Source: Candidatus Pseudothioglobus aerophilus
GTDB lineage: Bacteria; Pseudomonadota; Gammaproteobacteria; PS1; Pseudothioglobaceae
Length of the DNA stretch: 41,312 bases
Direction of reading: 5' to 3'
Assembly: GCA_014384565.1 (NCBI GenBank)
Contig: JACNFO010000016.1
Span: forward strand, 1-41,312
Position numbers and translations under genes: made by a program. The notes beneath the pieces were generated by a model. That model saw only the letters and a program-made list of their open reading frames with translations. It was not told where the DNA came from and did no database searches. This document shows, in pieces, positions 1-20,518 of the stretch (position 1 is the stretch's first letter; every line of letters begins with the position of its first letter).

Positions 1-902
1 CGATACATATCTATAACCCTCATATCTCCAGGTTTTTCCGAAGCAGGCATTCCCATAAAACCACCTGTAGGAGTGAGTGTGAGATTAGGCCATCCAAAAA
101 AACCTCCAAAATGACCTTCCGCAAGTTTACAAAGATGGCCATTAGAGATACGATCCTTAAAACCAGCCCTAAATGGGCCAGAGTGCTGCTCAGCATACCT
201 TTCAATTGTATAACTTGAGCCAATACCAGCAGGACCCCACCAAATCATATCTTCGTTCCAGCTAGCTCTAAGTTCATCAACTAATGATATTTTTCCTGTG
301 TGCTTCCAACCTTTAATATCTTCAATCATAAAGTTTATTGAAGCTAGTGTCTTTTCACCTTCTTCCATATTTTGCTCTTCGTACAACAAGCCCTCATGAG
401 TCATCGGTCCTGGCTGAACAAGATGGGCACCTGTTTGAGGTGGAAAGGGGTTTAATCCAACCTGCAGCATGACATGTGGAATATCAAAAAACATTGCAGT
501 TTCAGTAATTTTTCCATTTTCAACTTTATTAAACTCACAGTAACGAAGGAAGGCCATTTTTCTTGAGGGCTGAATTCCAAGCCATTCATTATCAAAGAGT
601 CCCATAAGATGGCCCATAGAAACTACCCAGACGGATTCAAATCCGTCAATTTGATTTTTTCCTGCAATAAAAATATCCATACGTCTTTGAATATTTTTAA
701 ATGCATGACGAAATGGCTGCCAGAAAATTTCTGAAACTTCCTTAGAATCTGAGATCTCATTAAAAGGATGAAATCCTCTCCAAATATAATCCTCACTAAT
801 ATAATTTTGTAAAACTTTTGTAATATCATTACCTTTCGAAGAATCTAGTGCTTTGTAATAATCACGAATTAAGTTTTTTTCGTTTTGAAAATTTGTAGTC
901 AT
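1..902 (-). CDS. SnoaL-like (NTF2-fold) tandem-domain protein, partial
   Basis: Reading back from an ATG at 902 gives 300 codons with no stop, so the C-terminus lies outside the window. The protein has two NTF2/SnoaL-like halves. Each carries a motif shared with paralogues elsewhere in the window: WWGPAGIGSS near residue 217, and MGMPASEKP near 280, where paralogues have MG(I/V)xPTNK. The N-terminal half has a matching GIQPSRK segment followed by a short acidic strand. SnoaL-like proteins include cyclases, isomerases, hydrolases and non-enzymatic binders, so no reaction is assigned. It starts 2 nt after the GMC oxidoreductase stop and is presumably the last visible gene of that transport operon. 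The family call is confident; the function is unknown. Confidence 0.8.
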   Translation of the reverse strand, partial: MTTNFQNEKNLIRDYYKALDSSKGNDITKVLQNYISEDYIWRGFHPFNEISDSKEVSEIFWQPFRHAFKNIQRRMDIFIAGKNQIDGFESVWVVSMGHLMGLFDNEWLGIQPSRKMAFLRYCEFNKVENGKITETAMFFDIPHVMLQVGLNPFPPQTGAHLVQPGPMTHEGLLYEEQNMEEGEKTLASINFMIEDIKGWKHTGKISLVDELRASWNEDMIWWGPAGIGSSYTIERYAEQHSGPFRAGFKDRISNGHLCKLAEGHFGGFFGWPNLTLTPTGGFMGMPASEKPGDMRVIDMY

Positions 903-904
903 AT

Positions 905-2509
905 TTATTCCTTTTCTAATATCATTGTTGCGCCAACTTCCGCAATCATCATCGTTGGTGCAGAAGTATTTCCACTCACGATGCTTGGCATGATTGAGGC
1001 ATCTATAACCCGGAGATTACTCAACCCTTTAACCTTTAAATTATCTGGTGAAACGACTGATAGATCGTCAGTACCCATTTTGCAGGTCCCTACAGGATGA
1101 TAGACGGTAACTGCAGTCTTACGAATATATGCCAATAGATCCTCATCAGACTGGATAGATTTTCCTGGAGCCATCTCCTCTCCTCGAACCTCGTCAAACT
1201 CTTCAGATGATAAAACTTCTCTTGCTTTTTTAATTGCCTCAACAATGGTTGCCTCATCGATGGTATTAGATAAAAAATTGTGGTCAATCAGCGCCTTGTG
1301 CATGTCCCCATCTTTCTTAATTTTTACAGATCCTCTACTGTGGGGCCTTAATAAACATGTAAAGAGGGAGTATCCATGCCCAAACTCAAACTTTCTACCT
1401 CGATGACTCCGGTATATAGGCGTGAAGTGAAACTGAACGTCGGGATAATCAGGTTGGCCAAGTTTTGTGTTTGCAAAACCTCCAACTTCAACATAATTAC
1501 TCGTCCACCAACCCATTCTCCTCAGAAGAAAATTGAATGGAGAGGTAATGACTTTTGGCAACAGAGACCTCCAAGAAATACCAATTGACTCTGCTTTGTT
1601 TGATCGAACTGTGACCATAGTGTCGAGGTGGTCTTGAAGATTTTCACCAACCCCTGGAACATTGTGTTGACATCTAATTCCTTCGGCTTCAAGCTCTTCC
1701 TTATTCCCGATCCCTGAGGATAAAAGTATCCTTGGTGACTCAATGGCACCAGCACATAGCACAATCTCTTTATTGCAATGTAATTCTTTATCAACACCAT
1801 TCACTTGAAGCTTTAAAGATTTAGCAATATCGCCTTCAATCTCAATTGATTGGACTCTGGCATGTGTCATTATGGTTAGATTAGTCCTCGAAACAATAGG
1901 CTTAATAAAGGCCCTATACGAGTTCACTCGAGTGCCTTTATCCTGAGTAACCTTATAATCACCCAGACCTAACTGAGAGGCGCCATTAAAGTCTGTGTTA
2001 TATGCAAGTCCTATATGATTTGCCGCACGGATAAAGCGTTGGGCCGTTTTATTGATCTCTTGTTGAATAACGACTGGCCACTCTCCATCCGTCGAATGGT
2101 AAGTAGGGTCTCCCCCTGTTTGGTCGTTCTCAAGTTTTTTAAAGATTGGCAAAACATCATTATAAGACCAGCCCTTGCATCCTAGTCTTTCCCAATTATC
2201 ATAATCATTCTTATTACCACGGATATAGATCATGCCATTAATGGAGCTCGATCCTCCAAGACACCTGCCTCGATTGACCTTTATTAATCGGTCATTCAAA
2301 TGTTTTTGGGGAGCGGTCTTATAGTTATAATCAAGTTTTTTATGGTCAATGGCCATAGAAAGACCGGCTGGGATTTTGACCCATGGACTCTTGTCATTGC
2401 CACCGCCCTCAATAAGACAAACAGTATTATCTGGATTTTCACTCAGACGATTGGCTAATACGCACCCAGCGGAACCTGCACCAATGATAATATAATCAAA
2501 GGAGGACAA
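905..2509 (-). CDS. GMC-family FAD-dependent alcohol dehydrogenase (choline dehydrogenase-like)
   Basis: A 534-residue GMC oxidoreductase of usual length. The FAD-binding GAGSAG is at residues 10-15. GMC signature 1 (GRCLGGSSSING) is near residue 80 and signature 2 (GAIESPRILLSSGIG) near 254. The catalytic pair appears intact: His471 in YHPVGTCKMG and Asn514 in NTSAPTMM. The family oxidises primary alcohols to aldehydes using FAD, and the closest named relatives are BetA/AlkJ-type dehydrogenases. Choline specificity cannot be read from sequence, and no betaine-aldehyde dehydrogenase is adjacent. The gene begins 3 nt after the second permease, which suggests that its substrate is what the transporter imports or a derivative of it. 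Confidence 0.9.
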   Translation of the reverse strand: MSSFDYIIIGAGSAGCVLANRLSENPDNTVCLIEGGGNDKSPWVKIPAGLSMAIDHKKLDYNYKTAPQKHLNDRLIKVNRGRCLGGSSSINGMIYIRGNKNDYDNWERLGCKGWSYNDVLPIFKKLENDQTGGDPTYHSTDGEWPVVIQQEINKTAQRFIRAANHIGLAYNTDFNGASQLGLGDYKVTQDKGTRVNSYRAFIKPIVSRTNLTIMTHARVQSIEIEGDIAKSLKLQVNGVDKELHCNKEIVLCAGAIESPRILLSSGIGNKEELEAEGIRCQHNVPGVGENLQDHLDTMVTVRSNKAESIGISWRSLLPKVITSPFNFLLRRMGWWTSNYVEVGGFANTKLGQPDYPDVQFHFTPIYRSHRGRKFEFGHGYSLFTCLLRPHSRGSVKIKKDGDMHKALIDHNFLSNTIDEATIVEAIKKAREVLSSEEFDEVRGEEMAPGKSIQSDEDLLAYIRKTAVTVYHPVGTCKMGTDDLSVVSPDNLKVKGLSNLRVIDASIMPSIVSGNTSAPTMMIAEVGATMILEKE

Positions 2510-2512
2510 TGA

Positions 2513-3394
2513 CTAGCCCTTGACTGCGCCAGCTGTTAATCCACTAACAAGCTGCCTTTGAAAAAACATTACCAGAATAAACAATGGAATTATGGAGGAT
2601 ACCACTGCTGCGACTGCAAACATAATGTTCCCTTCTGTTTGAGTAGTGCCCATAAAGCTGGCAATTTTAGGGACCATAGTTTGGTTTTCCTGAGACAACA
2701 GTAGAGCTGTAACAGCAAAATCATTATATGCCAAAAGGAATGAGAAGAGTCCAGCAGTAATAACTCCTGGCCACATTACTGGAATAATTACATGTCGAAA
2801 TGCTTGGAACTGAGTGCACCCATCTACCTTTGCACTCTCATCAAGCTCTTTCGGAATTGTTTGAAAAAATGAGTGCAGCATCCACAATGTAAATGGCTGG
2901 TTTATAGCCACTAAAACAATAATAGTAGTCGGCAATGTTCCCCAAACATTCCAGTCATAGAAGGGTTGTAAATAGCCAGAAACAAGAGTGATTGGAGGCA
3001 GCGCACGAAAAACAAGTGCAATTATTAGTAGCCAAAATGAATAACGAAAACCAGACCTTGAAAGCGCATAACCACCTAAAGTTGCAAGAGTTAATGATAT
3101 GACTACTGTAGAAACACAAACTATCGCTGTATTTAGAAAAGCGCGCCAAAACTCTTCTTGGATCCATGCGCCCTCATAACCTGCGCCTGTAAAAGATTTT
3201 CCATATACTACTTGCGTTCTTACCCCAGAAAAAACATTAGTCCAATCTCCCTTAGAGAAAAAATCCAGCTCTACTTTGAATGAGCCCCACATAGTCCAAA
3301 TAAATGGAAAGGCTGCCAGAATAAACCAGAACAATACAAAGCCATATATTAATAGTTGGAGTCCTAATGGTCTTTTTATTTGATTTGAAGTCAT
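2513..3394 (-). CDS. ABC transporter permease, MalG/UgpE type
   Basis: Inner-membrane permease of a carbohydrate-type ABC importer (293 residues from the chosen start, about six membrane segments). The cytoplasmic EAA loop that docks the ATPase is visible as ELDESAKVDGCTQFQAF..IIP. An upstream GTG at 3418 would overlap the first permease by 23 nt. I prefer ATG 3394, which directly follows that gene's stop (TAATATG) and gives the usual short cytoplasmic N-terminus MTSNQIKRPLG before the first membrane helix. It works with the permease at 3396-4421, the binding protein at 4520-5749 and probably the ATPase at 16885-17937. The substrate is unknown. Confidence 0.9.
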   Translation of the reverse strand: MTSNQIKRPLGLQLLIYGFVLFWFILAAFPFIWTMWGSFKVELDFFSKGDWTNVFSGVRTQVVYGKSFTGAGYEGAWIQEEFWRAFLNTAIVCVSTVVISLTLATLGGYALSRSGFRYSFWLLIIALVFRALPPITLVSGYLQPFYDWNVWGTLPTTIIVLVAINQPFTLWMLHSFFQTIPKELDESAKVDGCTQFQAFRHVIIPVMWPGVITAGLFSFLLAYNDFAVTALLLSQENQTMVPKIASFMGTTQTEGNIMFAVAAVVSSIIPLFILVMFFQRQLVSGLTAGAVKG

Positions 3395-3395
3395 A

Positions 3396-4421
3396 TTATT
3401 TCTCAGGATTGAATTCACGCCATGTTCTAATCAAAACTGGCATTAGAAGTATGATGACACCAATTATTGTCAACACTGATGTTGTGGCAGCGGATGACAT
3501 AAGTCTGATTTCTTGACCAATATCATTCCATATAATCCATGAAAGAGAGGTCGCATGTGCCGAAGCACTAAAACCAACTATTGGCTCAAATACTCGGAAA
3601 TTATCCATCAGCTGAATTAAAGCCACAAATGCAACTAGTGGAGATAAATGAGGCACAATGACATGAATAGTTTGCTGAAAGCGTGTGGCCCCATCAATCA
3701 TTGCTGCTTCTATAGTTTCTTGTGGAACAGTCTGCAGTCCAGCATAAAAAACAATGAAGGCGAAGGGGGCAGAATGCCAAACGCCGTATACAATGAGTGT
3801 TATCCAAGTTAGGCCAGTTGATGCCTTTAGTGACAGATTAGGATCTGCAAATAATTCTTGGAGTCCTGAACCAATAATACCTCTTGAATCAATCATCCAA
3901 AACAGAATCAACGAACCAACCAAAGGGGTTACAATCATCGGTAGCAATGAAAAGAAAACCATAAGCCCTTTAAGATGTCGATGCAGCGAGTTGACTGCCA
4001 GTGCAATTATCAATCCAAATAATATAACTAATGGTGTTACCACTATGACATAAGTTAACGTGAATCCCATTGCTTTATAAAATGGAAGATTGTTAAGACT
4101 TGACACAAAATCAAAAAAGTTTGTCTTATTCTCCCAAAGCTCACCGACCTCCTTAAAGGCTAGATGGTTTCTATCAGTATAGATTTGAAATCCGACCCAC
4201 TTGCCTTTTGGCTCCTCTTCTTTGATTTGTTTACTCGCCTCATGATCAATAGTTGTTTCAGATTTACAACCAAATGGATCACACGATTCGACAACAACCA
4301 AGACCTGATCATGGGGTGTATGAAGTGACTGACTAACAATCGAAGTTAAGGGCAAGGCAATGAACAAAAACATTGCTAGGGCTGTAGGTAAAAAGAACCA
4401 AAAAAAAGTCTTATGCTTCAT
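3396..4421 (-). CDS. ABC transporter permease, MalF/UgpA type
   Basis: First membrane subunit of the importer (341 residues). A membrane helix at about residues 8-28 is followed by a periplasmic segment of roughly 80 residues, containing the cysteine pair CDPFGC and a charged lysine/glutamate-rich stretch, before the core helices resume near residue 115. The EAA loop is visible as ETIEAAMIDGATRFQQ..VPHLSP near residue 235. A long loop after the first helix is known from MalF-type subunits, but the cysteine pair is distinctive and could form a periplasmic disulfide. A hairpin terminator separates this gene from the binding-protein gene upstream, so permease expression is probably set below that of the binding protein. 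Confidence 0.9.
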   Translation of the reverse strand: MKHKTFFWFFLPTALAMFLFIALPLTSIVSQSLHTPHDQVLVVVESCDPFGCKSETTIDHEASKQIKEEEPKGKWVGFQIYTDRNHLAFKEVGELWENKTNFFDFVSSLNNLPFYKAMGFTLTYVIVVTPLVILFGLIIALAVNSLHRHLKGLMVFFSLLPMIVTPLVGSLILFWMIDSRGIIGSGLQELFADPNLSLKASTGLTWITLIVYGVWHSAPFAFIVFYAGLQTVPQETIEAAMIDGATRFQQTIHVIVPHLSPLVAFVALIQLMDNFRVFEPIVGFSASAHATSLSWIIWNDIGQEIRLMSSAATTSVLTIIGVIILLMPVLIRTWREFNPEK

Positions 4422-4456
4422 ATCAAAATAATAAGATTATAGCAACTCAATTATAC

Positions 4457-4489
4457 AAAAAAGAAAAGGGCATGTGAAACACACGCCCT
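4457..4489 (-). terminator. Intrinsic terminator/attenuator between binding-protein and permease genes
   Basis: Read on the minus strand, this is a 10-bp stem with one G-U pair (AGGGCGTGTG / CACATGCCCT) and a TTT loop, followed by TTTTCTTTTTT. It lies 30 to 63 nt past the binding-protein stop and ahead of the permease start. Partial read-through at this point is a common way of making much more binding protein than membrane subunit. Confidence 0.8.
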
Positions 4490-4519
4490 AATCTTAGGAG
4501 ACAAACAACTTATAAAAGC

Positions 4520-5749
4520 TTATAAATAGCCTTTTTCTGTCGCAGCAGTTGTGTATGCCGCTTCTAAACCAGCTAAAGCTTGTTCAGCAGTTTCTTTACC
4601 TTGCATGAAGTCTACTATTTCAACTCCTGCAGCTGAATGCATTAGACCTGCATATGGCAACATTGGATACGGCTTAGTTCCCATTGCAGCAGCAGCAAAT
4701 ACACCTGCAGCAGCTGGAGTAGGCACATAACCATCAATTAGCCAAACAGCTTGTGGTGAAGTCGTTTCGTTTAACATTTCTGGACGAATTGCATGCATCA
4801 AAGCTATAAAAGTAGCCTCTGCATCTGCATCTGAAATGTTCTTAGCTATAGTAAATCCATCCCACCATAGTGTTGAAGCTGCAGTTGTACCACCGCCAAC
4901 TGTCATTGGGCCAGCAGTAGCTGTAGCAGCTACTACAGCTGCATCAACCTCGTCACCTCTAAGAGCACCGATACGTGATCCCCACATATTCATCAGGGCA
5001 ACATTGCCAGCTTTCCATTCAGCACTCGTAGCATTTGAGTCATGCGTTAGGAAGTCAGGGTTCATATATTCAGACAAAGCTTTCATCATATTAAGCGCAT
5101 CAATACCATGCTGATTGTTTACAGCAATCTCAGCTGTGCCAGGCTTAAAGAACTCACCACCATGGCCAATGTACATATTGACGAATTCTTCAGCTAAGTT
5201 CCAACCAGCTGCATAAGCGCCGCCAAGTGGGTACTGCATCAAATTATAGTTCGCAATTTTTTTAGCAGCCGCTAACATTTCTTCATAAGTAGATGGAACC
5301 GCAATTCCTAAATCTTTCAAGACATCCGATCTATAAGTAAGATGTTGAGCATTCGCCATAAAGGCAATACCCATAATATTTCCATCAATTGTAACTAACT
5401 GGCTTTTCTGAAGACCTTGTCCATGTTTTTCAACAAGATCATTCAAAGGTCTAATCACATCATTGTTCATAAGTGCAACAATTGATGAGTTAGCAACAAT
5501 AGCTGATGTAAATTCAGCTGGATTACCAGTCATACCTGGAAGATTAATTTTTTGATGATCAGCAGTTAAGTTTGTTTCAACTGTAACGCCATCACCAGCA
5601 CACTCCATTGCGCCTGCTCCGATTGTTTGAATCGCTGGAAACTCATTACCAACAATACTAACTCTGCCTTCAGAGATGCCGCAACCTGCCCATGCACTTG
5701 AAGCTAGAGTAGTAAGCGCTACAACTGTAGCGATTTTTCTTAAAAACAT
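4520..5749 (-). CDS. ABC transporter substrate-binding protein, family 1 (MalE-like)
   Basis: Periplasmic solute-binding protein of 409 residues. ATG 5749 was chosen over an upstream in-frame start at 5800 because it has a strong AGGAG 7 nt upstream and begins directly with a signal peptide (MFLRKIATVVAL..SSAWA, cleavage near residue 21). The mature protein has the family-1 extracellular solute-binding layout, ending in a helical lobe rich in alanine. It is first in the operon with two permeases, behind a promoter overlapped by a LacI-type operator (5816-5845). The family mostly binds sugars, polyols and glycerophosphodiesters, but the neighbours here (carnitine cleavage, GMC, HpsN-like dehydrogenase) leave the ligand open. 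Confidence 0.9.
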   Translation of the reverse strand: MFLRKIATVVALTTLASSAWAGCGISEGRVSIVGNEFPAIQTIGAGAMECAGDGVTVETNLTADHQKINLPGMTGNPAEFTSAIVANSSIVALMNNDVIRPLNDLVEKHGQGLQKSQLVTIDGNIMGIAFMANAQHLTYRSDVLKDLGIAVPSTYEEMLAAAKKIANYNLMQYPLGGAYAAGWNLAEEFVNMYIGHGGEFFKPGTAEIAVNNQHGIDALNMMKALSEYMNPDFLTHDSNATSAEWKAGNVALMNMWGSRIGALRGDEVDAAVVAATATAGPMTVGGGTTAASTLWWDGFTIAKNISDADAEATFIALMHAIRPEMLNETTSPQAVWLIDGYVPTPAAAGVFAAAAMGTKPYPMLPYAGLMHSAAGVEIVDFMQGKETAEQALAGLEAAYTTAATEKGYL

Positions 5750-5815
5750 AATATCACTCCTTTTTTCAATTAAATACAAATTAATAATACATCGTAACAA
5801 ATATTAAAAAATATA

Positions 5816-5845
5816 TTGCATACGATTGCAAAAGATTATATCACA
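5816..5845 (-). promoter_or_regulatory. Extended -10 promoter overlapped by LacI-type operator (transport operon)
   Basis: The minus strand reads TGATATAAT (5835-5843), a perfect extended -10. Three bases later comes the palindrome-like TTGCATACGATTGCAA (5816-5831, plus-strand reading), with arms TTGCA/TGCAA around a central CG, typical of LacI-family operators. The operator covers the expected transcription start near 5828, so repression by occlusion is likely. No good -35 hexamer was seen. A near-identical copy lies at 17985-18014. Confidence 0.75.
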
Positions 5846-5995
5846 GAGTTTTAATCTCTATATAACTTTTTATACAGCATATTCTATTCTTAAAGAAATT
5901 TAACACAGTATATTACCCTTAGATAAAATCTTGAATTTTTATTCAGAAAAAGCATATATTTATTTTCAATCGCAACACTAAATAGGATTATGAAG

Positions 5996-7018
5996 ATGCC
6001 TGCTAGAGGACCCAGACCTGCAATGGGGATTGCTACAAAAATATCCCATACAAATAAACGCATTTTTGCTTCTTACGCTCAGTCATTTAATTCATCGCAA
6101 AATGGCGATATTGAACAGGCAATAAAATTAATTTTTAGTTCTGATGCAAAAATTGATGCCTTCCATCCTGTCAATGAAACAAAGGGGGCAATTGGTTATT
6201 TTAGGGACATCATTAGCCCAATCCTACAATCGTTTAGAGGCTTTCAAAGACGTGATAATATTATTATTGGGGGAGAATATCTAGGTGGCGAATGGATTGC
6301 TACTACTGGCTATTTTTTGGGTCATTTTGAACACACATGGCTTGGTATCCCACCAAGCAATAAACTTGAACATATTCGCTTTGGTGAGTTTCATAGAATG
6401 ATTGATGGAGAGATTGTTGAATCACAAATTTTTTTAGGTGTTGCAGAGCTATTAATTGACCTTGGCATCTGGCCACTTGAACTCATGGGTGGATATGAGG
6501 GAGTTACTCCTGGCCCATTAACACAAGACGGCATTATTATTACTGAAAATGAACCAGTCAAGTCTAGAGCTACAGCTGATTTAGTTGAAGGTATGCTTAT
6601 GGAGCTAACCTCACCAGATGCAGATTGGATTCCTTACTGGGATGAACGAATGATATGGTATGGCCCCGGTGGTTTTGGCTCATATGTAACGATTGAAGCC
6701 TTTGCAGCGTTCCAAGTACCATTTGAGAATACATTTGAAGGCTGGGGTGACGGAGTTCCTCAAGGAATTTTAGGGGTTGGTTCTCAGTGCAAATCAGGCG
6801 ATGGCGACTATGCGTTTCTTAGTGGTTGGCCACAAGTTACAGGCGTTCATGTCAAGACCTTTATGGGCATTCAGCCAACAAATAAACGTATTTATATGCG
6901 AGATTGTGACTGGTGGAGGTGTAAAGATGGAAAGATTATTGAAAATTGGTGTATGGTCGATACACTTCATTTAGTGCATCAGTTAGGACGAGACATACTA
7001 TCTGAAATTTCTCAATAA
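5996..7018 (+). CDS. SnoaL-like (NTF2-fold) tandem-domain protein
   Basis: 340 residues from ATG 5996. The alternative ATG at 5990 leaves only 2 nt after the AGGA at 5984, whereas 5996 leaves 8 nt. There are two SnoaL-like halves. The first contains LGIPPSNKLEHIRFGEF and the second contains IWYGPGGFGS near residue 220 and MGIQPTNKRIYMRDCDWW near 288. These motifs align with the paralogues at 1-902, 14003-15058 and 16380-16865. It stands alone on the plus strand between the two minus-strand operons. Its promoter region is shared with the operator at 5816-5845, so it is probably in the same regulon. The reaction, if any, is unknown. Confidence 0.8.
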   Translation: MPARGPRPAMGIATKISHTNKRIFASYAQSFNSSQNGDIEQAIKLIFSSDAKIDAFHPVNETKGAIGYFRDIISPILQSFRGFQRRDNIIIGGEYLGGEWIATTGYFLGHFEHTWLGIPPSNKLEHIRFGEFHRMIDGEIVESQIFLGVAELLIDLGIWPLELMGGYEGVTPGPLTQDGIIITENEPVKSRATADLVEGMLMELTSPDADWIPYWDERMIWYGPGGFGSYVTIEAFAAFQVPFENTFEGWGDGVPQGILGVGSQCKSGDGDYAFLSGWPQVTGVHVKTFMGIQPTNKRIYMRDCDWWRCKDGKIIENWCMVDTLHLVHQLGRDILSEISQ

Positions 7019-7040
7019 CTCTACTAAAAACTCAAAAAAT

Positions 7041-7748
7041 TTATGTTCTTGATTTTTCAAAATCTTCCCATGCACTTTTAAAGCTATCAAAATTGAAATC
7101 TTTCTTTTCAGCAGGACCAAGAATCAACTGCTCTGAAGCAAATAACTTATGGATAGCGTCCTTTAAACCATTAATAACCTCTTTAGGGATTACAACTGCG
7201 CCGTGAAGGTCGGCATGAATTAAATCATTTGGCGAAACACTCATACCAAGAACACTAATTTTTGTATCAATTTCTCGTACGTGAACAAATCCGTGACTTG
7301 GACCGATAGAGCCTGCAATGACTGGAAAATCTTCTGCAAGATCACCAAGATCTCTCATAACTCCGTTAGTCAGCGCACCAGAAAGACCAAACCCTTTGTG
7401 AACTTTCGTATTAACCTCACCCCAATAAGCTCCAATACAATTTGGATAATCAACATCCTCTATAACTGCAACGGCAGGGCCAGTAATTTCTGACATATAG
7501 CGGTAATAATTCATCCTCCGCTCTTTAATTATCTCTTGATCTTCTGTTGGCGGACTCAGTGCAGCAATTTTTGCAGTTTTGGCAAAACCAACCATTGCTC
7601 CACCTTTTGGTGCCGAGCAAATCATGGTTCCACGAGTAAATTCTGAAAAACCCCTCTTGCCTTGTGCTACTTCAATTGCGTTACATACAGTAGGTGTATC
7701 TACTGATTGAAGAAGGGTAAATAATTCTTGATCTAGTTCATAAGCCAT
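7041..7748 (-). CDS. RraA/HMG-aldolase-like family protein
   Basis: 235 residues of the RraA-like fold. It retains the Arg-Asp pair in GALTNGVMRDLGDL (Arg132, Asp133) and the upstream GEV segment expected of the metal-dependent 4-hydroxy-4-methyl-2-oxoglutarate (HMG/CHA) aldolases. The true RraA RNase E regulator keeps the fold but is about 160 residues, so the extended length and catabolic setting favour an aldolase or related lyase that releases pyruvate or a similar oxo-acid. It is the last gene of the twelve-gene minus-strand operon, and its ATG lies 16 nt inside the end of the hydrolase gene. The substrate is unknown. Confidence 0.75.
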   Translation of the reverse strand: MAYELDQELFTLLQSVDTPTVCNAIEVAQGKRGFSEFTRGTMICSAPKGGAMVGFAKTAKIAALSPPTEDQEIIKERRMNYYRYMSEITGPAVAVIEDVDYPNCIGAYWGEVNTKVHKGFGLSGALTNGVMRDLGDLAEDFPVIAGSIGPSHGFVHVREIDTKISVLGMSVSPNDLIHADLHGAVVIPKEVINGLKDAIHKLFASEQLILGPAEKKDFNFDSFKSAWEDFEKSRT

Positions 7749-9555: not shown

Positions 9556-9593
9556 TCATTACTCCTTAATAATATATAAAAAAGGTCATTCCC

Positions 9594-10256: not shown

Positions 10257-10273
10257 TATCATGTCCTTAAAAG

Positions 10274-11239: not shown

Positions 11240-11241
11240 TA

Positions 11242-12210: not shown

Positions 12211-12213
12211 AAA

Positions 12214-13236: not shown

Positions 13237-14000
13237 TAGTCAGCAGTCCAACCTCCATCCACCATAAGTGCAGAGCCAGTAACCATTGATGAGCCAGCGG
13301 AAGCTAAAAATACTACAGCCCCCATGATATCTTCAACCTCTCCAATTCGGCCAATTTTAATCTTACTTTCAATCCACTCTTTACGATCAGGATTATCAAA
13401 AGTTGATTGAGTAAGCGGTGTACGTATAAATGTTGGACAGATTGTATTAACTCTAATTTGATGGGAGCCCCACTCAATGGCCATAGCTTTTGTAAATCCC
13501 TCTACCGCATGCTTTGATGCTGAATAAACTGCTCTATCAATCCCGCCTACATGACCCATCTGGGAAGAAATGTTGATTAATGAGCCAGGTTTTTTTGCTT
13601 TTATTAATCCATTCGCTACTGCTTGAGTTACAAAGTATGCGCCGCGAAGATTAACATTCATTACCGCATCAAAATCTTCTAATGATGTATCTTTAGAAGG
13701 TGCGTGCCTACCTAAACCAGCGCTATTAACTAAAATATCGAATGGTCCTTTATTATCAATAGTTTCTTTAATTGCATTTGTATCAGCAACATCCATCACC
13801 ATTGCTTCAGCACTTAACCCTTTCGCTTTCATTGCATCAACAACAGAATGAAGTTTATCAATACGTCGGGCTGATACAACAACGTGTGCGCCTGCTTCAG
13901 CCAGGGCTACTGCACAACCAAGACCAATACCAGATGAGGCTCCTGTAATTAAAGCAGTCTTGTCATCTAGTCTAAACGATGGTGTAGTTGGAAGCTTCAC
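13236..14000 (-). CDS. Short-chain dehydrogenase/reductase (classical SDR)
   Basis: 254 residues from GTG 14000, which has AAGGA 7 nt upstream; a TTG at 14006 is also in frame but too close to that site. Classical SDR features are intact: TGASSGIG cofactor motif near residue 20, NSAG, the catalytic serine in INISSQMG and the YSASK catalytic pair. It oxidises or reduces a hydroxyl/keto group with NAD(P). Next to an HpsN-like dehydrogenase, a second alcohol-oxidising step is plausible; in dihydroxypropanesulfonate pathways a dehydrogenase of the 2-hydroxyl accompanies HpsN. No substrate can be fixed. Confidence 0.9.
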   Translation of the reverse strand: MKLPTTPSFRLDDKTALITGASSGIGLGCAVALAEAGAHVVVSARRIDKLHSVVDAMKAKGLSAEAMVMDVADTNAIKETIDNKGPFDILVNSAGLGRHAPSKDTSLEDFDAVMNVNLRGAYFVTQAVANGLIKAKKPGSLINISSQMGHVGGIDRAVYSASKHAVEGFTKAMAIEWGSHQIRVNTICPTFIRTPLTQSTFDNPDRKEWIESKIKIGRIGEVEDIMGAVVFLASAGSSMVTGSALMVDGGWTAD

Positions 14001-14002
14001 AC

Positions 14003-15058
14003 TCAATATCCTTTTGTATTTCTCGCTTTGTTAAACTCTCTCAATCTTCCGAGTACGTCGACACCCATTTGATCATAAATATCAAGGATATCAAGCATCA
14101 CCCAGTTTTCTCTTATTTTTCCTTCCTCGAGCCTCCAGAAATCTAGAGAGCGAAGAAAAACTTCTTTGTTAGTTGGAGCTACGCCCATCCAACCATCATG
14201 GGTAAGAGTTTGTTTCATATTTGGCCAGCCAGTTACGGCTACATAATCTCCATCGCCAAAAAAGTGGTAGCCTACTTTATCTCCCCAGCCATCTCTCTTA
14301 CTATAAGTTGTATCCTTTCCTCTATCAGGCATAGCATTCAAAAATGGAATTTGATGCCAATTTCTAAAACCTTCAACTCCTCTTCCACTTCCTATAGCAG
14401 ATGGTCCATACCAATTCATTTTTGGATGCCAATAGTAATCCATTTTCATAATCTCAGGGCCGCCCTCAGAAGGGTGTTTTTTCATAGCATCCGCCATTCC
14501 TAAAATATGCTCCATTGAAGTGTTACTTTTTTCTAGATCATAAGGCTTATCTGAAATTCCATCCATCGTAGCTGGACCTGGAACACACCATTCTCTTCCA
14601 AGTGATGGGGCCATTGGCCAAGAGCCTGACTGCATCATTAGTTCTGGGATGTCCCATAAAGCCTGAACTTCTATTATTTTGTCATCCCGAAAGCAATAAA
14701 ATTCATGAAATCGCATGTGGGCTATATGTCCAGTCGGCGGAATATCTAAAAAAGGTTTCAAGAATGTACCATTATAAAAACCAGCACACCCTATCCACTC
14801 TAAATCCTTTTCTGTTTTTCCGCCGATAACAATATAATCGCGTCTTTCTAAATCTGGCATTGATTCAAACAAGGGTTTAAGCGCCTGGTTATAAAAATTA
14901 GTTGGTCCTGAAATATCTCCAAAAGGATGAGAAAGATGAATAGTAGCTTCCTCATAAAACAAGGAGTTAAGATTTTTTCGAACCTCATCTTCCGTAAAAC
15001 TATACATACTCAATCTTAGGGGCTTTATTAGCTCCTTAAGATAATTAATTCTATGCAC
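14003..15058 (-). CDS. SnoaL-like (NTF2-fold) tandem-domain protein
   Basis: 351 residues beginning with GTG 15058, which overlaps the upstream stop (TAGTG). The N-terminal half has LDIPPTGHIAHMRFHEFY. The C-terminal half has NWYGPSAIGSGRG near residue 214 and MGVAPTNKEVFLRSLDFW near 289. These are the same paired motifs as in the genes at 5996-7018 and 1-902, so the three are true paralogues with the same two-domain plan. It lies between the HDH-like dehydrogenase and the SDR, which suggests it handles an oxidised intermediate, for example by tautomerisation or hydration. That role is inference. Confidence 0.8.
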   Translation of the reverse strand: MHRINYLKELIKPLRLSMYSFTEDEVRKNLNSLFYEEATIHLSHPFGDISGPTNFYNQALKPLFESMPDLERRDYIVIGGKTEKDLEWIGCAGFYNGTFLKPFLDIPPTGHIAHMRFHEFYCFRDDKIIEVQALWDIPELMMQSGSWPMAPSLGREWCVPGPATMDGISDKPYDLEKSNTSMEHILGMADAMKKHPSEGGPEIMKMDYYWHPKMNWYGPSAIGSGRGVEGFRNWHQIPFLNAMPDRGKDTTYSKRDGWGDKVGYHFFGDGDYVAVTGWPNMKQTLTHDGWMGVAPTNKEVFLRSLDFWRLEEGKIRENWVMLDILDIYDQMGVDVLGRLREFNKARNTKGY

Positions 15059-16368
15059 TACTGCGCTGCCTTGCCATAAGGGACATCCTCTCCACCATAT
15101 CGCCTTACTCGAATATTAGCTTGTTCTGCATGGCCAACAAACGACTCAAGCATACATAGTCTTGAGCAGTATCTACCAATCTTTACAGCTGCCTCATCCG
15201 TTGTAATTTTTTGGTAGCTATGCGTTTTAAGATACTTACCAACCCAAAGACCACCAGTATAACGTCCAGCTTTTTTTGTTGGTAAAGTGTGATTGGTTCC
15301 AATTACTTTGTCACCATTAGAAACATTTGTTCTTGGTCCTAAAAATAGCGCTCCGTAGGAATGCATATTTTCTAAAAACCAATCATCGCGATCTGTCATT
15401 ACCTGAACATGCTCAGATGCAATTTCATTAGCAACATCTAACATCTCATCATAGCTATCACAAAGAATTATTTCACCATACTCTTTCCAGCTCACGGAAG
15501 CAGTTTCTGCTGTTGGAAGAATCTTTAAAATTCTATCTATCTCAGAGATTGTTTCTTCTGCTAGATTTTTATTATTAGTTACCAGGACAGCTGGTGAGTT
15601 ATATCCATGCTCAGCCTGACCTAACAAATCTGTTGCACATAATTCAGCATCTACCGTTTCATCCGCTATCACCATAGTCTCTGTTGGTCCAGCAAACAAG
15701 TCAATTCCAACCTTTCCAAATAATTGCCTTTTAGCTTCAGCAACAAATGCATTTCCAGGGCCAACAAGCATATCAACTGGGTCTATTGTTTCAGTTCCAA
15801 GAGCCATTGCCCCAACAGCCTGAATGCCTCCTATGACATATATGTCATGAGCACCGCCAAGATGCATTGCAGCGATAACTGCGGGATTTGGAGAGCCTTT
15901 ATAGGGAGGCGTGCAAGCAATAATTCTTGGAACTTTTGCAACACTAGCAGTTACAACAGACATGTGTGCTGAAGCAACCATTGGAAACTTACCTGCTGGG
16001 ATATAACACCCAACCGATTGAACTGGGATGTTCTTATGTCCTAATATAACGCCAGGCATAGTCTCTACCTCTATATCCTTCATAGAATCTCTCTGGGCTT
16101 GCGCAAAGTTTCTAACTTGTTCCTGAGCAAACTTAATGTCCTCAAGATCCTGGGTCGAAACTTGTTTTATTAAATTGTCAATCTCTGTCTGGGTTAATTT
16201 GAAGGATTTTGGAGTGTAGTTATCAAACTTTTCTGCAAACTCTCTAACTGCCTCATCGCCTCTATCCTCGATGGATCTTAAAGTATTTTTTACAATCTCA
16301 CTAACCTCAGCATCATCGATAGCCTTAGCAGCATCTGTCTTACCTTTTTTTAAATATGTTATCGCCAT
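15058..16368 (-). CDS. Histidinol-dehydrogenase-like NAD-dependent alcohol dehydrogenase (HpsN-like)
   Basis: 436 residues of the HisD fold. All residues of the HisD zinc and catalytic set are at the expected spacing: Gln251 and His254 (GQAEHG), Glu319-His320 (SEHVQV), Asp353 and His413. The protein should therefore carry out a zinc- and NAD-dependent four-electron oxidation of a primary alcohol to an acid. It is in a catabolic operon with no other his genes, as for HpsN, which oxidises 2,3-dihydroxypropane-1-sulfonate to sulfolactate. Sulfolactate lyase genes (suyAB) are not in the window, so sulfopropanediol is only one candidate substrate. A GGAG site precedes ATG 16368. Confidence 0.85.
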
Positions 16369-16379
16369 AATATCTCCAA

Positions 16380-16865
16380 TTAGCTTGGCTTTGCAGGGGC
16401 AATCTCGCCTCGATCATAAGCCTCCCAGCCTTGACCATTAAAAACATCCACGTCAAGTTGTGACAAAATACTTGGAAAGTCAACAGTTACCCAGTTGTCT
16501 ATTATGAGCCCATCCTTAACTTCCCAAAAATCTGTATAGTGAATTTTTACGCGCTTATTAGTTGGCGCTATGCCCATGAATTCTCCACTATGAATAGCAT
16601 CAATATGGCCAAAGCAAGACGCCCACTCACCATCTACTAAAAATTTATCAGTATTATAAATTCGGTCTGAAAAAGCAGCTCTCAGAGGGAGCTGCCAATT
16701 ATTACGAAACTCTTCAAGACTTTTCTTGGTACCACATCCATTATTACCCATCCAACGAAAATCTTTATGAAAATGCTTTTCCATATTATTAGAATTAGTA
16801 CTTAAGGCCTCTTCCATAGCCTTAACAACAGCAAGTGTCATTTTGGATTGCTCGTTATGGTCCAT
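16380..16865 (-). CDS. SnoaL-like (NTF2-fold) single-domain protein
   Basis: 161 residues, equal to the C-terminal half of the two-domain SnoaL-like paralogues. It carries [16 protein letters not shown] near residue 37 (the YGPxGxGS position) and [20 protein letters not shown] near 94, then [19 protein letters not shown]. It is preceded by GGAG and is the second gene of the operon, directly after the ABC ATPase and before the HDH-like dehydrogenase. As the only single-domain member it may be the ancestral form, or may act as a dimer mimicking the fused ones. The catalytic role is unknown. Confidence 0.82.
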
Positions 16866-16884
16866 TTTTTAAATCTCCAATTTT

Positions 16885-17937
16885 TTAATTTTTAAGCAGT
16901 TTTCCAGTTTTAGAACTGAAAAGTAGGCATAAATTTGCTGGCACACTTGCCATAACGGTTGAACCAATCTTGGCATAATAATTTTTATCAGACTTTATGG
17001 AAATTAAATCACCACCAGCCTTTACTGAAACCATGGTCATATCTCCCAATAACTCCATTGAAAATGCTGCTGCTTTAATCGCTCCCTTACTTTTCACAAT
17101 GGATGCATCTTCCGCTCTAAATCCGAGGGTTATATCGCCAGAATGCTTTTTATTCAGGCCTTCAATTTTTACATTATCACAAGAGAAGACTCCATCTGTT
17201 ATTGTTCCTTTCATCAAGTTCATGGCAGGCGAACCAATAAAGCTTGCAACAAAACTATTGGCAGGAGTATTGTATATTTCTTGAGGCGTTCCAACCTGTT
17301 GGACGAGTCCATTGTTCATAACAACAACACGATCTGCAAGTGTCATTGCCTCAACCTGATCATGTGTTACATAGATTGTTGTTACGCGTAATTTGTGTTG
17401 GAGGTTTTTAATTTGCGCTCGGGTAGAGACGCGTAATTTAGCATCAAGGTTTGAAAGTGGTTCATCCATTAAAAATACTGTCGGCTCTCTAACAATTGCT
17501 CTTGCCAAAGCTACTCTTTGTCTTTGACCCCCAGAAAGCTCTGATGGTTTGCGATGTAAGAAATCATCGAGCTCAACCATTGCAGAAGCCCTCATAACTT
17601 TTTCTTTATGAAGCTCTTTGTCAATATTTCTTACTTTTAATGGGAAGCGAATGTTTTCATATACCGTCATATTTGGATAGAGGGCATATGACTGAAAGAC
17701 CATTGCAACATCACGATCCTTTGGCTCAAGATTATTTACAATCTCACCATTAATCAGCACCTCTCCACTAGTGACAGTTTCAAGTCCAGCAATCATTCGC
17801 ATTGTAGTAGTTTTTCCACAGCCTGATGGCCCAAGTAATACCAAAAACTCTTCGTCAGGAATAGTAAGGTTAAAGTTATCTACACCAACGAAATCACCCC
17901 AACGCTTCGTAATGTTTTTTAGTTCAATTTTAGCCAT
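16885..17937 (-). CDS. ABC transporter ATP-binding protein, UgpC/MalK type
   Basis: 350 residues with Walker A GPSGCGKTT (about 36-44), signature LSGGQRQRVALARA (about 134-147), Walker B VFLMDEPLSNLDA with the D-loop, and the switch His in VTHDQVEAM. It ends in the TOBE domain of the MalK/UgpC group. It should energise the importer formed by the binding protein and permeases at 2513-5749, which lack an ATPase of their own. It is the first gene of a twelve-gene operon under the same promoter/operator as the transport operon. No Shine-Dalgarno sequence is evident before ATG 17937. Confidence 0.93.
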   Translation of the reverse strand: MAKIELKNITKRWGDFVGVDNFNLTIPDEEFLVLLGPSGCGKTTTMRMIAGLETVTSGEVLINGEIVNNLEPKDRDVAMVFQSYALYPNMTVYENIRFPLKVRNIDKELHKEKVMRASAMVELDDFLHRKPSELSGGQRQRVALARAIVREPTVFLMDEPLSNLDAKLRVSTRAQIKNLQHKLRVTTIYVTHDQVEAMTLADRVVVMNNGLVQQVGTPQEIYNTPANSFVASFIGSPAMNLMKGTITDGVFSCDNVKIEGLNKKHSGDITLGFRAEDASIVKSKGAIKAAAFSMELLGDMTMVSVKAGGDLISIKSDKNYYAKIGSTVMASVPANLCLLFSSKTGKLLKN

Positions 17938-17984
17938 ATTTTTTTATGTATACTGTTTTAAGAAAATTGCATAGAAAGGTCGTA

Positions 17985-18014
17985 ATGCATACGATTGCAA
18001 AATATTATATCACA
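17985..18014 (-). promoter_or_regulatory. Extended -10 promoter overlapped by LacI-type operator (catabolic operon)
   Basis: This is the second copy of the element at 5816-5845. Positions 17986-18014 match 5817-5845 at 28 of 29 bases. On the minus strand TGATATAAT (18004-18012) is followed by the CG-centred dyad ATGCATACGATTGCAA (17985-18000, plus reading). It drives the ATPase operon, and its position between divergent genes could also affect BKACE. Confidence 0.75.
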
Positions 18015-18039
18015 TGCTATTTTTTTTTGATAGTGATGT

Positions 18040-18079
18040 TGAAATCGTATTTAAATTTCTACTATTAGAAATCGATTTC
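18040..18079. promoter_or_regulatory. Possible auxiliary operator sites upstream of BKACE
   Basis: Two further CG-centred sites lie between the main operator and the BKACE start. One is TGAAATCGTATTTA (18040-18053), matching TGCAATCGTATGCA at 11 of 14 positions. The other is a perfect 12-bp palindrome GAAATCGATTTC (18068-18079). Their spacing from the main dyad (about 53 bp and then 27 bp) would allow looping or control of the divergent plus-strand promoter. Binding is inferred only. Confidence 0.4.
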
Positions 18080-18125
18080 AGTAATATATAGATTAATATA
18101 ATAAACATAAATTTGGAGAAATCAT

Positions 18126-19037
18126 ATGACTAACCTTCAACCATCTCGAGAAGTTTTTATTACTTGCGCCGTTACAGGGTCCGGAGATACTACGGGAAAA
18201 TCTGATAAAGTTCCTATTACGCCTCAACAAATAGCTGATTCATGTATCGGGGCAGCTCAAGCTGGCGCCGCCATTGTTCATATTCATGTTCGCAACCCAA
18301 AAACAGGAGTTCCCGCTCGAGACCCAAAGCTCTATGCTGAAGTTGTAAGCATTATTCGTGAGTCAAAGGTTGATATGGTGCTCAATCTAACAGCAGGAAT
18401 GGGTGGAGATTTAGTATTTGGCTCTGCTGAAAAGCCTTTGCCATTAAATAATGAAGGCACCGATATGGTAGGCGCAACTGAAAGGCTTGACCATGTTAGA
18501 CAAATACTTCCTGAGATCTGCACTATTGATTGCGGAACAATGAATTTTGGCGAAGGCGGTTATGTTATGACCAATACTCCAGCAGTCCTTAAGGAAATGG
18601 CAAGACAAGTTCAAGAACTTGGGGTTAGGCCTGAAATAGAAGTCTTTGATACTGGTCATTTACAGCTTGCCATATGGCTAAAGGAGCAGGGCTTAATTGA
18701 TGATCCTGTTATGATTCAGTTATGTATGGGTATTCCATGGGGCGCTCCTGATGACTTAAACACCTTCCTTGCAATGACATCAAATATTCCAAAAGATTGG
18801 ACATTTTCTGCCTTCTCAATTGGTAGAAATCAGTTGCCTTATGTGGCTATGGCCATCCTAGCAGGGGGTAATATTCGTGTTGGGCTTGAAGACAATCTTT
18901 ATCTAAAACGTGGCGTTTTTGCTACCAATGCAGACCTTGTAAAGAAGGCTGTTCAGACAGCAGAGGGCATGGGCTGCACTATTATAGGGCCAGATCAAGT
19001 CCGAGATAATATGAAACTCGAAAAGCGCTGGGGCTAG
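18126..19037 (+). CDS. BKACE-family beta-keto acid cleavage enzyme (probable 3-dehydrocarnitine cleavage enzyme)
   Basis: 303 residues of the DUF849/BKACE zinc family. The zinc ligands are recognisable as His52 and His54 (HIHVRNP) and Glu255 (GLEDNLYL). BKACE enzymes condense a beta-keto acid with acetyl-CoA and cleave it to acetoacetate plus a new CoA ester. Because the next gene is a carnitine 3-dehydrogenase fused to a thioesterase, the expected reaction is 3-dehydrocarnitine plus acetyl-CoA to betainyl-CoA plus acetoacetate. GGAGA precedes the ATG. The family call is firm; the substrate is inferred from the neighbour. Confidence 0.9.
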   Translation: MTNLQPSREVFITCAVTGSGDTTGKSDKVPITPQQIADSCIGAAQAGAAIVHIHVRNPKTGVPARDPKLYAEVVSIIRESKVDMVLNLTAGMGGDLVFGSAEKPLPLNNEGTDMVGATERLDHVRQILPEICTIDCGTMNFGEGGYVMTNTPAVLKEMARQVQELGVRPEIEVFDTGHLQLAIWLKEQGLIDDPVMIQLCMGIPWGAPDDLNTFLAMTSNIPKDWTFSAFSIGRNQLPYVAMAILAGGNIRVGLEDNLYLKRGVFATNADLVKKAVQTAEGMGCTIIGPDQVRDNMKLEKRWG

Positions 19038-19039
19038 AT

Positions 19040-20518
19040 ATGAAAAGTATCAAGGCGGCAGGAGTTATTGGTGCAGGCGTTATTGGAAGTGGATGGATAG
19101 CTAGATTATTACTCAACGGGATTGACGTTTTTGTCTATGACCCCTCCAAAGAAGCACCAAAATATGTCAATAAAGTTATTGATAATGCCGAGCGAGCATA
19201 TAAAAAATTGCTCACCTCCAATCTACCTAAAAAGGGCAAGCTATTATTTTCTGCCTCAATTTCAGAAGTTGCAAAGTCTTGTGAGTTAATTATTGAAGCT
19301 GTTCCAGAAAGGCTTTCAATTAAGCAATCGGCCTATGAGGAAATTGAGTCAAGCGCAGACAAAAATCTAGTCATAGCATCGTCAACTTCTGGCATTCTTC
19401 CTTCAGATTTACAAGCAAAAATGAAACACCCTGAAAGGCTTCTAGTTGCCCATCCATTTAACCCAGTCTACCTCTTGCCATTAGTTGAAATTGTTGGCGG
19501 TTCTAAAACATCCAAAAATGTCATCGAGGAAACTAGTAAAATTTTTACCAATATTGGTATGTTCCCACTTCATATCAAAAAAGAAATTCCTGCTTTTATT
19601 GCAGATAGACTTCTTGAGTCAGTATGGCGAGAAGCCTTATGGCTCGTAAATGATGACATAGCAACAACTGAAGAAATTGATGATGCAATTCGCTATGGCT
19701 TTGGCCTTCGATGGGCACAAATGGGATTATTTGAAACCTATAGATTAGCAGGTGGTGAAGCTGGCATGCGTCACTTCATATCACAGTTTGGGCCTTGCCT
19801 TGAATGGCCCTGGACTCACCTAATGGATGTTCCTGAATTTACTGATGAATTAATAGAAAAGGTATCCAGTCAATCTGACCACCAATCGGGGCAATTTAGC
19901 ATTGACCAGCTAATGGAAAAACGTGATGATAACTTGGTCGATTTTTTAAAAGTTTTAAAAGACAATCAGTGGGGTGCTGGAAACTCTCTCAAAGAATTTG
20001 ATGCAAGCTTGTCAGGTTCAATTAATAAACTAGAATTTTCAGAACTAAATTTATCAAGCCCCTTACCCACCTATGTCACCAAAGTACCAAAAGAGTGGGC
20101 TGACTATAACGGTCATATGACAGAAGCACGTTATCTTGAATGCTTTTCAGAGGCAACCACAGAGATGATGTCTATTATCGGCGCAGACGAAGAATACATT
20201 TTAAACATAGGATCTTATTTTACAGTTGAGACTCATATTCGCCACTTGGATGAGGTTCAAATTGGAGAAAGTATAAAAGCCAAAACTCAGGTTATCTTTG
20301 GAGAAAATAAAAAACTTCACTTATTTCATTGGCTCAATCATGAGGACGGCAGACTATTAGCAACTGCTGAGCATATGCTCATTCATGTCGATCTTAAAAC
20401 ACGGGGTGCAAGCATGCCAAATGATTTGGTCTTGAAGCGAATGGGATTAGTTTATGAAGCACACAAAAAACTACCAAGACCAGAAGGCATAAACCGCGCA
20501 GTTGGAGATAAATTTTAA
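19040..20518 (+). CDS. lcdH: L-carnitine 3-dehydrogenase fused to betainyl-CoA thioesterase
   Basis: 492 residues. Residues 1 to about 325 match L-carnitine dehydrogenase as I recall it: GAGVIGSG (11-18) for NAD, HPFNPVYLLPLVEIVGG, FIADRLLESVWREAL, and AGGEAGMRHFISQFGP. Residues from about 345 form a hotdog-fold thioesterase (WADYNGHMTEARYLE.. then the ETHIRHLDEV strand). Known free-standing LcdH is about 320 residues, so this is the bifunctional form. With BKACE it should convert carnitine to glycine betaine, oxidising the 3-hydroxyl and later hydrolysing betainyl-CoA. It starts 2 nt after BKACE. No betaine demethylation genes follow in the window. Confidence 0.92.
   Translation: MKSIKAAGVIGAGVIGSGWIARLLLNGIDVFVYDPSKEAPKYVNKVIDNAERAYKKLLTSNLPKKGKLLFSASISEVAKSCELIIEAVPERLSIKQSAYEEIESSADKNLVIASSTSGILPSDLQAKMKHPERLLVAHPFNPVYLLPLVEIVGGSKTSKNVIEETSKIFTNIGMFPLHIKKEIPAFIADRLLESVWREALWLVNDDIATTEEIDDAIRYGFGLRWAQMGLFETYRLAGGEAGMRHFISQFGPCLEWPWTHLMDVPEFTDELIEKVSSQSDHQSGQFSIDQLMEKRDDNLVDFLKVLKDNQWGAGNSLKEFDASLSGSINKLEFSELNLSSPLPTYVTKVPKEWADYNGHMTEARYLECFSEATTEMMSIIGADEEYILNIGSYFTVETHIRHLDEVQIGESIKAKTQVIFGENKKLHLFHWLNHEDGRLLATAEHMLIHVDLKTRGASMPNDLVLKRMGLVYEAHKKLPRPEGINRAVGDKF

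Follow-up and report, generated by a model that had tools for sequence, protein, structure and literature searches.

What do five genes of the SnoaL fold do beside a single importer? The question is raised by contig JACNFO010000016.1 of Candidatus Pseudothioglobus aerophilus (GenBank assembly GCA_014384565.1), a stretch of 41,312 nucleotides hereafter called the window, whose first 20,518 nucleotides are the subject of this analysis. In our numbering of this assembly (1.47 Mb, 62 contigs) the window is contig C57 or part of it. Several related SnoaL-fold proteins beside one importer hint at an undescribed breakdown route, and an earlier note, made from the sequence alone, had placed them in one catabolic island. 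We tentatively propose, at somewhat less than an even chance, that this LacI-controlled cassette breaks down a compound of sugar or polyol type by a non-phosphorylating route, with SnoaL proteins carrying out dehydration or isomerisation.

Gene content and conservation of the cassette

The 20 genes of the window that were scanned with Pfam include five SnoaL genes, named sno1 to sno5 (Table 1). All five exceed the cut-off of the family (PF07366, 28.4 bits), four as tandem doublets and one as a single domain. The neighbours listed in the earlier note (dehydrogenases, RraA, cupin, MetE-like protein, hydrolase) and a complete ABC importer are indeed present, together with a HAD-family gene (9594-10286) missing from its list. 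From 3 to 17937 the genes form two tightly packed runs on the minus strand, with sno2 on the plus strand in between. The first run contains the genes of the importer ATPase, sno5, the HisD-like dehydrogenase, sno4, the SDR dehydrogenase, the LacI regulator, sno3, the cupin, the HAD-family hydrolase, the MetE-like protein, the alpha/beta hydrolase and RraA, with intergenic gaps of -31 to 38 bases. The second encodes the solute-binding protein (SBP), two permeases, a GMC oxidoreductase and sno1, with gaps of -23 to 98 bases.

A scan with sno4 gave 310 related stretches, of which the best 80 were kept and supplemented with ten plasmid loci. Since all 80 loci were selected by sno4 and have flanks of 10 kb, the counts of the other families depend on this choice; moreover, L033 and L034 are seemingly one contig in two bins. 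Over these 90 loci, sno4 is found in 89, sno3 in 70, each permease in 68, the SBP in 67, the ATPase and LacI in 57 each, the HisD-like protein in 56, the cupin in 51, sno5 in 48, the SDR in 42, the MetE-like protein in 40, RraA in 35, sno1 in 34 and the hydrolase in 31. The HAD (5 loci) and GMC (3 loci) genes look accessory. We classed 57 loci as full and 33 as reduced, a split with known misassignments (L042 and L044 do contain HisD, and the HisD of L085 is a 30% homologue).

Among named genomes, the best match of the window is a bin labelled "SUP05 cluster", with a sno4 99% identical. The gene order of the cassette is repeated in bins named SUP05, SAR116, Rhodobacteraceae, Rhizobiaceae and Oceanospirillaceae, and synteny extends across SUP05-type, SAR116, Rhodobacterales and Rhizobiales loci. 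Because dozens of distantly related genomes show the identical order, the cassette is more than a chance assembly. The paralogue set lies in one conserved cluster, and the absence of synteny in relatives, which the earlier note had named as contrary evidence, did not occur.

Matches of the sno4 type at an E-value of 1e-60 or better were found in 22 of the 398 genomes of the phylum, own genome included, at a limit that also lets in sno2- and sno1-type genes. In a search of 58 genomes, sno4 matched 25 of the 29 of the genus (again including the own genome), nine of them at 84% identity or more; it had no match in the 8 genomes of the family outside the genus, nor in the 21 from elsewhere in the class. 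Several of the genus copies that we examined have no sno4. In the tree, the sno4 of the window groups with rows named as SAR116 and Rhodobacteraceae (L018-L021; support 100/94). This distribution and placement fit a horizontal gain by the genus: the cassette was probably acquired by this SUP05-type genus through horizontal transfer, in a direction that we infer.

Regulation by LacI

The earlier note had guessed that the genes belong to one LacI regulon, a guess that conserved operators support. A LacI-type operator precedes both transcription units of the window, TTGCATACGATTGCAA in the gap between the SBP and sno2 and a second site 47 bases ahead of the ATPase gene. A scan of the window allowing up to 3 mismatches gave 3 near-matches for 0.83 expected, and 6 of 100 shuffles gave as many; within the window by itself, sites of this quality are thus not rare. 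In the own whole genome, the degenerate operator with one mismatch matched the two window sites and one site at contig C51; its reversed control had no site there. The pattern TTGCANNCGNNTGCAA occurs 54 times in the 90 loci (1.69 Mb), a count made in the loci from which the pattern was derived and controlled by three palindromes only, each with 0 occurrences in the same loci. By hand count, 51 of the 54 sites are ahead of an ATPase, SBP or SnoaL gene. They occur in 37 of the 48 loci with LacI and importer, in 0 of the 9 with LacI alone and in 5 of the 33 without LacI in view; the last five may be controlled in trans as members of the same regulon. A LacI gene, a palindromic operator before the target units and its conservation in relatives together point to a LacI regulon. 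A promoter scan did no better than shuffles (42 matches, mean of 43.4) and was set aside.

Eleven loci carry paired operators 54 or 55 bases apart ahead of importer or sno1 genes (L022, L023, L024, L028, L032, L044, L058, L066, L073, L083, L092), an arrangement that might serve looping or the control of two promoters.

Linkage between the importer and SnoaL genes

The importer is of the CUT1 type, with an SBP_bac_1 protein, two BPD permeases and a MalK-type ATPase all encoded in the window. Importers of this type and LacI regulators both usually serve sugars, and the closest solved chains to the SBP are sugar-binding proteins, as weak matches. We searched permease B (perB) in 30 genomes, all carriers of sno4, and obtained 39 matches at an E-value of 1e-70 or better in 29 of them. 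A SnoaL gene lies within about 4 kb of 37 of the 39 matches, all but those of L180 and L182; in L181, which counts among the 37, it was recognised by a weak 28% match. The number of SnoaL genes per locus is not constant. Of the 40 full loci whose importer lies in view, and within the limits set by the flanks, 25 have four, 7 have five, 7 have three and one has two. The 29 loci flagged as reduced have 1 to 4, and L042 and L044 among these are actually full. The importer type varies across loci with the same catabolic genes, the SBP having 39-69% identity to that of the window, and 97% in one SUP05 relative. One member of the genus (L128) has a different importer type and keeps the remaining cassette.

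Other importer loci of this kind were encountered. Ruegeria conchae TW15 has an extra one (L142, 9662-17310), where a LacI gene accompanies four genes of the SnoaL type; a wider family of SnoaL importer loci exists. A Boseongicola bin (L183) combines, within 19 kb, an importer locus containing genes of the SnoaL type with a BKACE gene that shares 61% identity with that of the window. In the window, a terminator-like hairpin with a T tract occupies 4467-4489, between the SBP and permease A genes, and could perhaps yield more SBP than permease.

The SnoaL proteins

The five proteins show 25-31% pairwise identity in the longer BLAST matches, and sno3 matches none of the other four by BLAST. Of the two motifs that the earlier note attributed to four of them, MGxxPTNK is exact in sno2, sno4 and sno5 and replaced by MGMPASEK in sno1; (Y/W)GPxGxGS is exact in sno1 and sno2 and present as variants in sno4 and sno5; sno3 has neither. 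In a tree of 139 C-terminal domains, whose bootstrap had not converged, sno2, sno3 and sno5 each form a single clade with high support, and the sno1 and sno4 labels, assigned by best hit, require 2 and 5 changes. The families thus separated before they spread, and the tree presents them as old families rather than recent duplicates.

A separate case is a plasmid of the haloarchaeon Halobellus limi (L098, 11590-17983), on which four SnoaL doublets are lined up with a single SnoaL gene and a MetE-like gene. The four doublets cluster together in the domain tree (93/95), and this set is probably a separate expansion.

The models of sno4 (pLDDT 84.9) and sno3 (pLDDT 92.7) both consist of two consecutive NTF2 domains. 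The best folds found by Foldseek for the SnoaL models are IdmH, ChaU and AclR, and for sno4 also the polyether epoxide hydrolases Lsd19 and MonBI/MonBII, two-domain NTF2 proteins. However, identity to the latter is 9-13% and their role is biosynthetic; since the root-mean-square deviation is 16-18 A over both domains, the domain arrangement of sno4 differs from theirs. Polyketide cyclases of the SnoaL type (SnoaL, AknH, IdmH, ChaU, AclR) share the Pfam family and the fold with the cassette proteins, which differ by their tandem doublets, catabolic context and linkage to an importer. In sno5, furthermore, the His107/Asp121 pair of SnoaL, its catalytic acid-base pair, is not kept.

Alignments show numerous invariant polar residues, including in both domains of sno3 and sno4, and one Asp position is conserved in 8 of the 9 domains (42 of 44 rows in the C-terminal domain of sno1). 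In a profile alignment of sno5 with SnoaL, this position corresponds to Asp124, not Asp121, and we therefore dropped the claim of a SnoaL-like catalysis through the conserved Asp. No signal peptide was seen in the SnoaL proteins, as judged by eye. The proteins are likely catalytic.

The sno1 gene is cut by the edge of the contig after 300 residues, for a full length of 337 in a 95%-identical relative (L115). Two other contigs of the own genome, C61 and C59 (L113, L114), each apparently end in the absent part of sno1, beside an open reading frame (ORF) of 506 residues, which looks like an assembly fork. In another relative (L117), sno1 is followed by a gene for an MTTB-family methyltransferase and then for a DAO/GCV_T protein. 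The own genome also has a further SnoaL doublet of 342 residues (L112, G000:C28:1-3435), whose neighbours are an aldo/keto reductase and an EamA transporter.

A proposed breakdown pathway

Non-phosphorylating sugar-acid pathways are known for L-fucose and L-rhamnose and as the Weimberg/Dahms type. The cassette resembles them in its sugar-type importer, LacI regulator and SDR, in having no kinase among the genes scanned and, tentatively, in its 2-oxo-acid aldolase type and in a lactonase-like protein found in relatives only. It differs from them by its four doublets and single SnoaL gene, and by its additional HisD-like, MetE-like and cupin proteins. Furthermore, our Pfam scan of 20 window genes revealed no dehydratase of the IlvD or enolase type, the loci of relatives not having been scanned whole. 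For this reason we propose that the cassette works like such a pathway, and not that it is one; importer, regulator, SDR, lactonase-like and aldolase-type genes resemble such a pathway without its usual dehydratase, and the SnoaL proteins are natural candidates for that step. According to PMC3924330, NTF2-fold enzymes include dehydratases and isomerases.

The genes present, their synteny, the operators, the linkage of importer and SnoaL genes, the distinct paralogue families and the conserved residues are observed; from them we infer the substrate class, the reactions and their order. The importer would take up a small metabolite of sugar or polyol type that is probably neutral. Once it has reached the cytoplasm, its hydroxyls would be oxidised by the SDR and the HisD-like enzyme, joined in some lineages by the GMC protein; the HisD-like enzyme would probably turn a terminal CH2OH group into a carboxylate. 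The acid-base chemistry that follows (enolisation, isomerisation, gain or loss of water) would be the task of the SnoaL-fold proteins, whereas in known non-phosphorylating sugar pathways it falls to dehydratases of the IlvD or enolase type. The RraA-type aldolase might cleave the product to pyruvate-level pieces, and the hydrolase, the cupin and the MetE-like protein may act on a side group or branch. LacI is predicted to repress both transcription units until an inducer binds.

An amidohydrolase, not encoded in the window, adjoins sno1 in 15 of the 90 loci; its sole NCBIfam match is L-fucono-1,5-lactonase and its nearest PDB chains are 4dlf/6uvz. Ruegeria SCSIO 43209 has, beside sno1, a protein annotated as SMP-30/gluconolactonase and a GarL-like aldolase, and no RraA by tblastn. 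The MetE-like protein reaches no NCBIfam cut-off. The zinc ligands of MetE are His, Cys, Glu and Cys, and the corresponding positions (HIC, E and C) are conserved in at least 97% of the 41 sequences compared. In the bicupin, the last usual metal His is an Arg in 51 of 51 sequences, and we dropped the idea that it is a gentisate dioxygenase. The HisD-like protein shares PF00815 with HpsN and HisD, and its nearest solved chains are HpsN and another dehydrogenase of 2,3-dihydroxypropane-1-sulfonate (DHPS). However, its orthologues carry GKFPM (49) or GKYPM (1 of 50) in place of the motifs given in PMC11382572, GRY[A/S]H with a sulfonate-binding His in HpsN and GSAPL in HisD.

Several observations weigh against a sugar or polyol pathway. 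The MetE-like and cupin proteins have no obvious role in it, and reduced loci contain just the importer and one or two SnoaL genes. The lactonase and aldolase scores stay far below the curated cut-offs, with 111.9 bits for a cut-off of 400 in the amidohydrolase and 136 bits for a cut-off of 406.75 in the GarL-like aldolase, and the SMP-30 protein has no NCBIfam match at 1e-10. At the positions opposite His107 and Asp121 of SnoaL, sno5, the only protein aligned in this way, has Asp112 and Val126. Finally, genes of the 3-hydroxybenzoate 6-monooxygenase and glutathione S-transferase (GST) types adjoin the cassette in three SAR116 loci (L018, L019, L021), the monooxygenase of L018 being above its cut-off (572.1 bits, cut-off of 459). 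These neighbours would fit an aromatic intermediate.

A broader reading, which we regard as possible and rather doubtful, is that a tandem SnoaL toolkit tied to one subfamily of CUT1 importers takes the place of classical dehydratases and isomerases when marine bacteria break down sugars or polyols oxidatively, and does so too, after a separate expansion, in a haloarchaeon; the substrate would be a common marine metabolite with an undescribed breakdown route. Since genomes of the SUP05, SAR116 and Roseobacter types carry the cassette, its substrate may feature commonly in marine carbon flow, masked by present annotation, which names these SnoaL genes "ester cyclase" or "nuclear transport factor 2 family protein". 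If the SnoaL proteins do perform chemistry, a fold known mainly from biosynthesis would gain a role in catabolism. Thanks to the operator and to the linkage of importer and SnoaL genes, culturable Ruegeria could serve to test the question. Among the titles and abstract openings searched, a scope outside which preprints and most subscription journals lay, we recognised no paper on a multi-SnoaL catabolic locus.

Alternative explanations

The aromatic hints in SAR116 could point to a different substrate, a cyclic, O-methylated metabolite of phytoplankton with amino substituents, for example a mycosporine-like amino acid. The HisD-like enzyme would oxidise its CH2OH group, SnoaL proteins would drive the release of amino acids and aromatisation, the MetE-like protein would demethylate, and a gallate-type lower route with the amidohydrolase and the RraA aldolase would follow, a chemistry that is again conjectural. 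Besides the SAR116 neighbours, this explanation draws on Novosphingobium pentaromativorans, where a MetE-like protein 47% identical to ours is encoded next to an NTF2 gene, among genes that suggest demethylation (aminomethyltransferase, metF, purU, ligA), and on glycine-cleavage, threonine-aldolase, sarcosine-oxidase or aminomethyltransferase genes close to some loci. However, the co-location of GCV_T genes is not clearly above background: by hand sums, the 30 genomes contain 409 such domains in about 113 Mb, so that about 2.6 are expected within 12 kb of one place per genome, and at least 5 were placed. The same comparison weakened the more general idea of a methylated, C1-linked substrate, which was initially attractive. 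Since the amidohydrolase resembles a sugar lactonase, and the mycosporine literature searched contained nothing bearing on these genes, we consider a mycosporine-like substrate improbable. The homarine literature searched likewise contained nothing of relevance to them.

The loci could also combine several short, unrelated pathways that share importer and regulator, each SnoaL protein having its own substrate. In reduced loci sno4 or sno3 stands alone with the importer, sno2, GMC and HAD are variably present, and importer types are exchanged, all of which agree with such a mixture. On the other hand, sno1, sno3, sno4 and sno5 keep their order with the HisD, SDR and cupin genes in distant genomes and under the same operator, and we give the mixture little credence.

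The earlier note had considered either successive isomerisation or hydration steps or a scaffold of intermediates. SnoaL proteins that bind, shield or sense intermediates without catalysis would be in line with the non-catalytic binders that PMC3924330 reports among NTF2-like domains, and with the multi-SnoaL sets that have little besides an importer. The same source describes enzymatic NTF2 forms as mostly intracellular, and the invariant polar residues, the widely conserved Asp and the lack of a visible signal peptide appear to fit enzymes better; a purely non-enzymatic role is thus unlikely. That the cassette serves sulfonates such as DHPS, a lead taken from the label "HpsN-like" in the earlier note and from the nearest solved chains, is highly improbable, given GK[FY]PM in 50 of 50 orthologues; moreover, none of the 20 window genes scanned encodes a sulfolactate lyase or belongs otherwise to sulfonate metabolism.

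Features of the window and the neighbouring carnitine module

Table 1. Genes and sites of the cassette and of the adjoining module, in window positions.
Feature	Position	Strand	Family or remark
sno1, tandem SnoaL doublet, cut by contig edge	3-902	-	PF07366, 35.5 bits
GMC oxidoreductase, choline-dehydrogenase-like, apparently accessory	905-2509	-	below NCBIfam cut-off; family in 3/90 loci
ABC importer permease B (perB)	2513-3418	-	PF00528
ABC importer permease A (perA)	3396-4421	-	PF00528
ABC importer SBP	4520-5749	-	PF01547; start is an internal ATG of ORF 4520-5800
Putative LacI-type operator TTGCATACGATTGCAA	5816-5831	.	inverted repeat, SBP/sno2 gap
sno2, tandem SnoaL doublet	5990-7018	+	PF07366, 61.5 bits
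RraA-type aldolase family protein	7041-7748	-	PF03737
Alpha/beta hydrolase	7733-8425	-	PF00561
MetE-like protein (C-terminal catalytic domain type)	8422-9555	-	PF01717
HAD-family hydrolase, apparently accessory	9594-10286	-	PF13419; 5/90 loci
Bicupin	10274-11272	-	PF07883
sno3, tandem SnoaL doublet	11242-12210	-	PF07366, 39.7 bits
LacI-family regulator	12214-13236	-	PF00356, PF13377
SDR dehydrogenase	13236-14006	-	PF13561
sno4, tandem SnoaL doublet	14003-15058	-	PF07366, 66.2 bits
HisD-like dehydrogenase, subfamily with motif GKFPM	15058-16368	-	PF00815
sno5, single SnoaL domain	16380-16865	-	PF07366, 62.4 bits
ABC importer ATPase, MalK type	16885-17937	-	PF00005, PF17912
Second putative LacI-type operator, one mismatch	17985-18000	.	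ahead of ATPase gene
BKACE (carnitine module)	18126-19037		
Dehydrogenase/thioesterase fusion (carnitine module)	19040-20518		

The pair of genes at 18126-20518, which the earlier note had counted in the island, is a carnitine module divergent to the cassette, with a carnitine 3-dehydrogenase score of 705.7 bits (NCBIfam cut-off of 592). It adjoins the cassette and yet is separate from it: the two are together in 3 of the 90 loci, and carnitine was set aside as a part of the pathway. The module is also a neighbour in the members of the genus that we examined, and in three of these (L122, L125, L131) a gene for an AraC-type regulator lies between it and the cassette.

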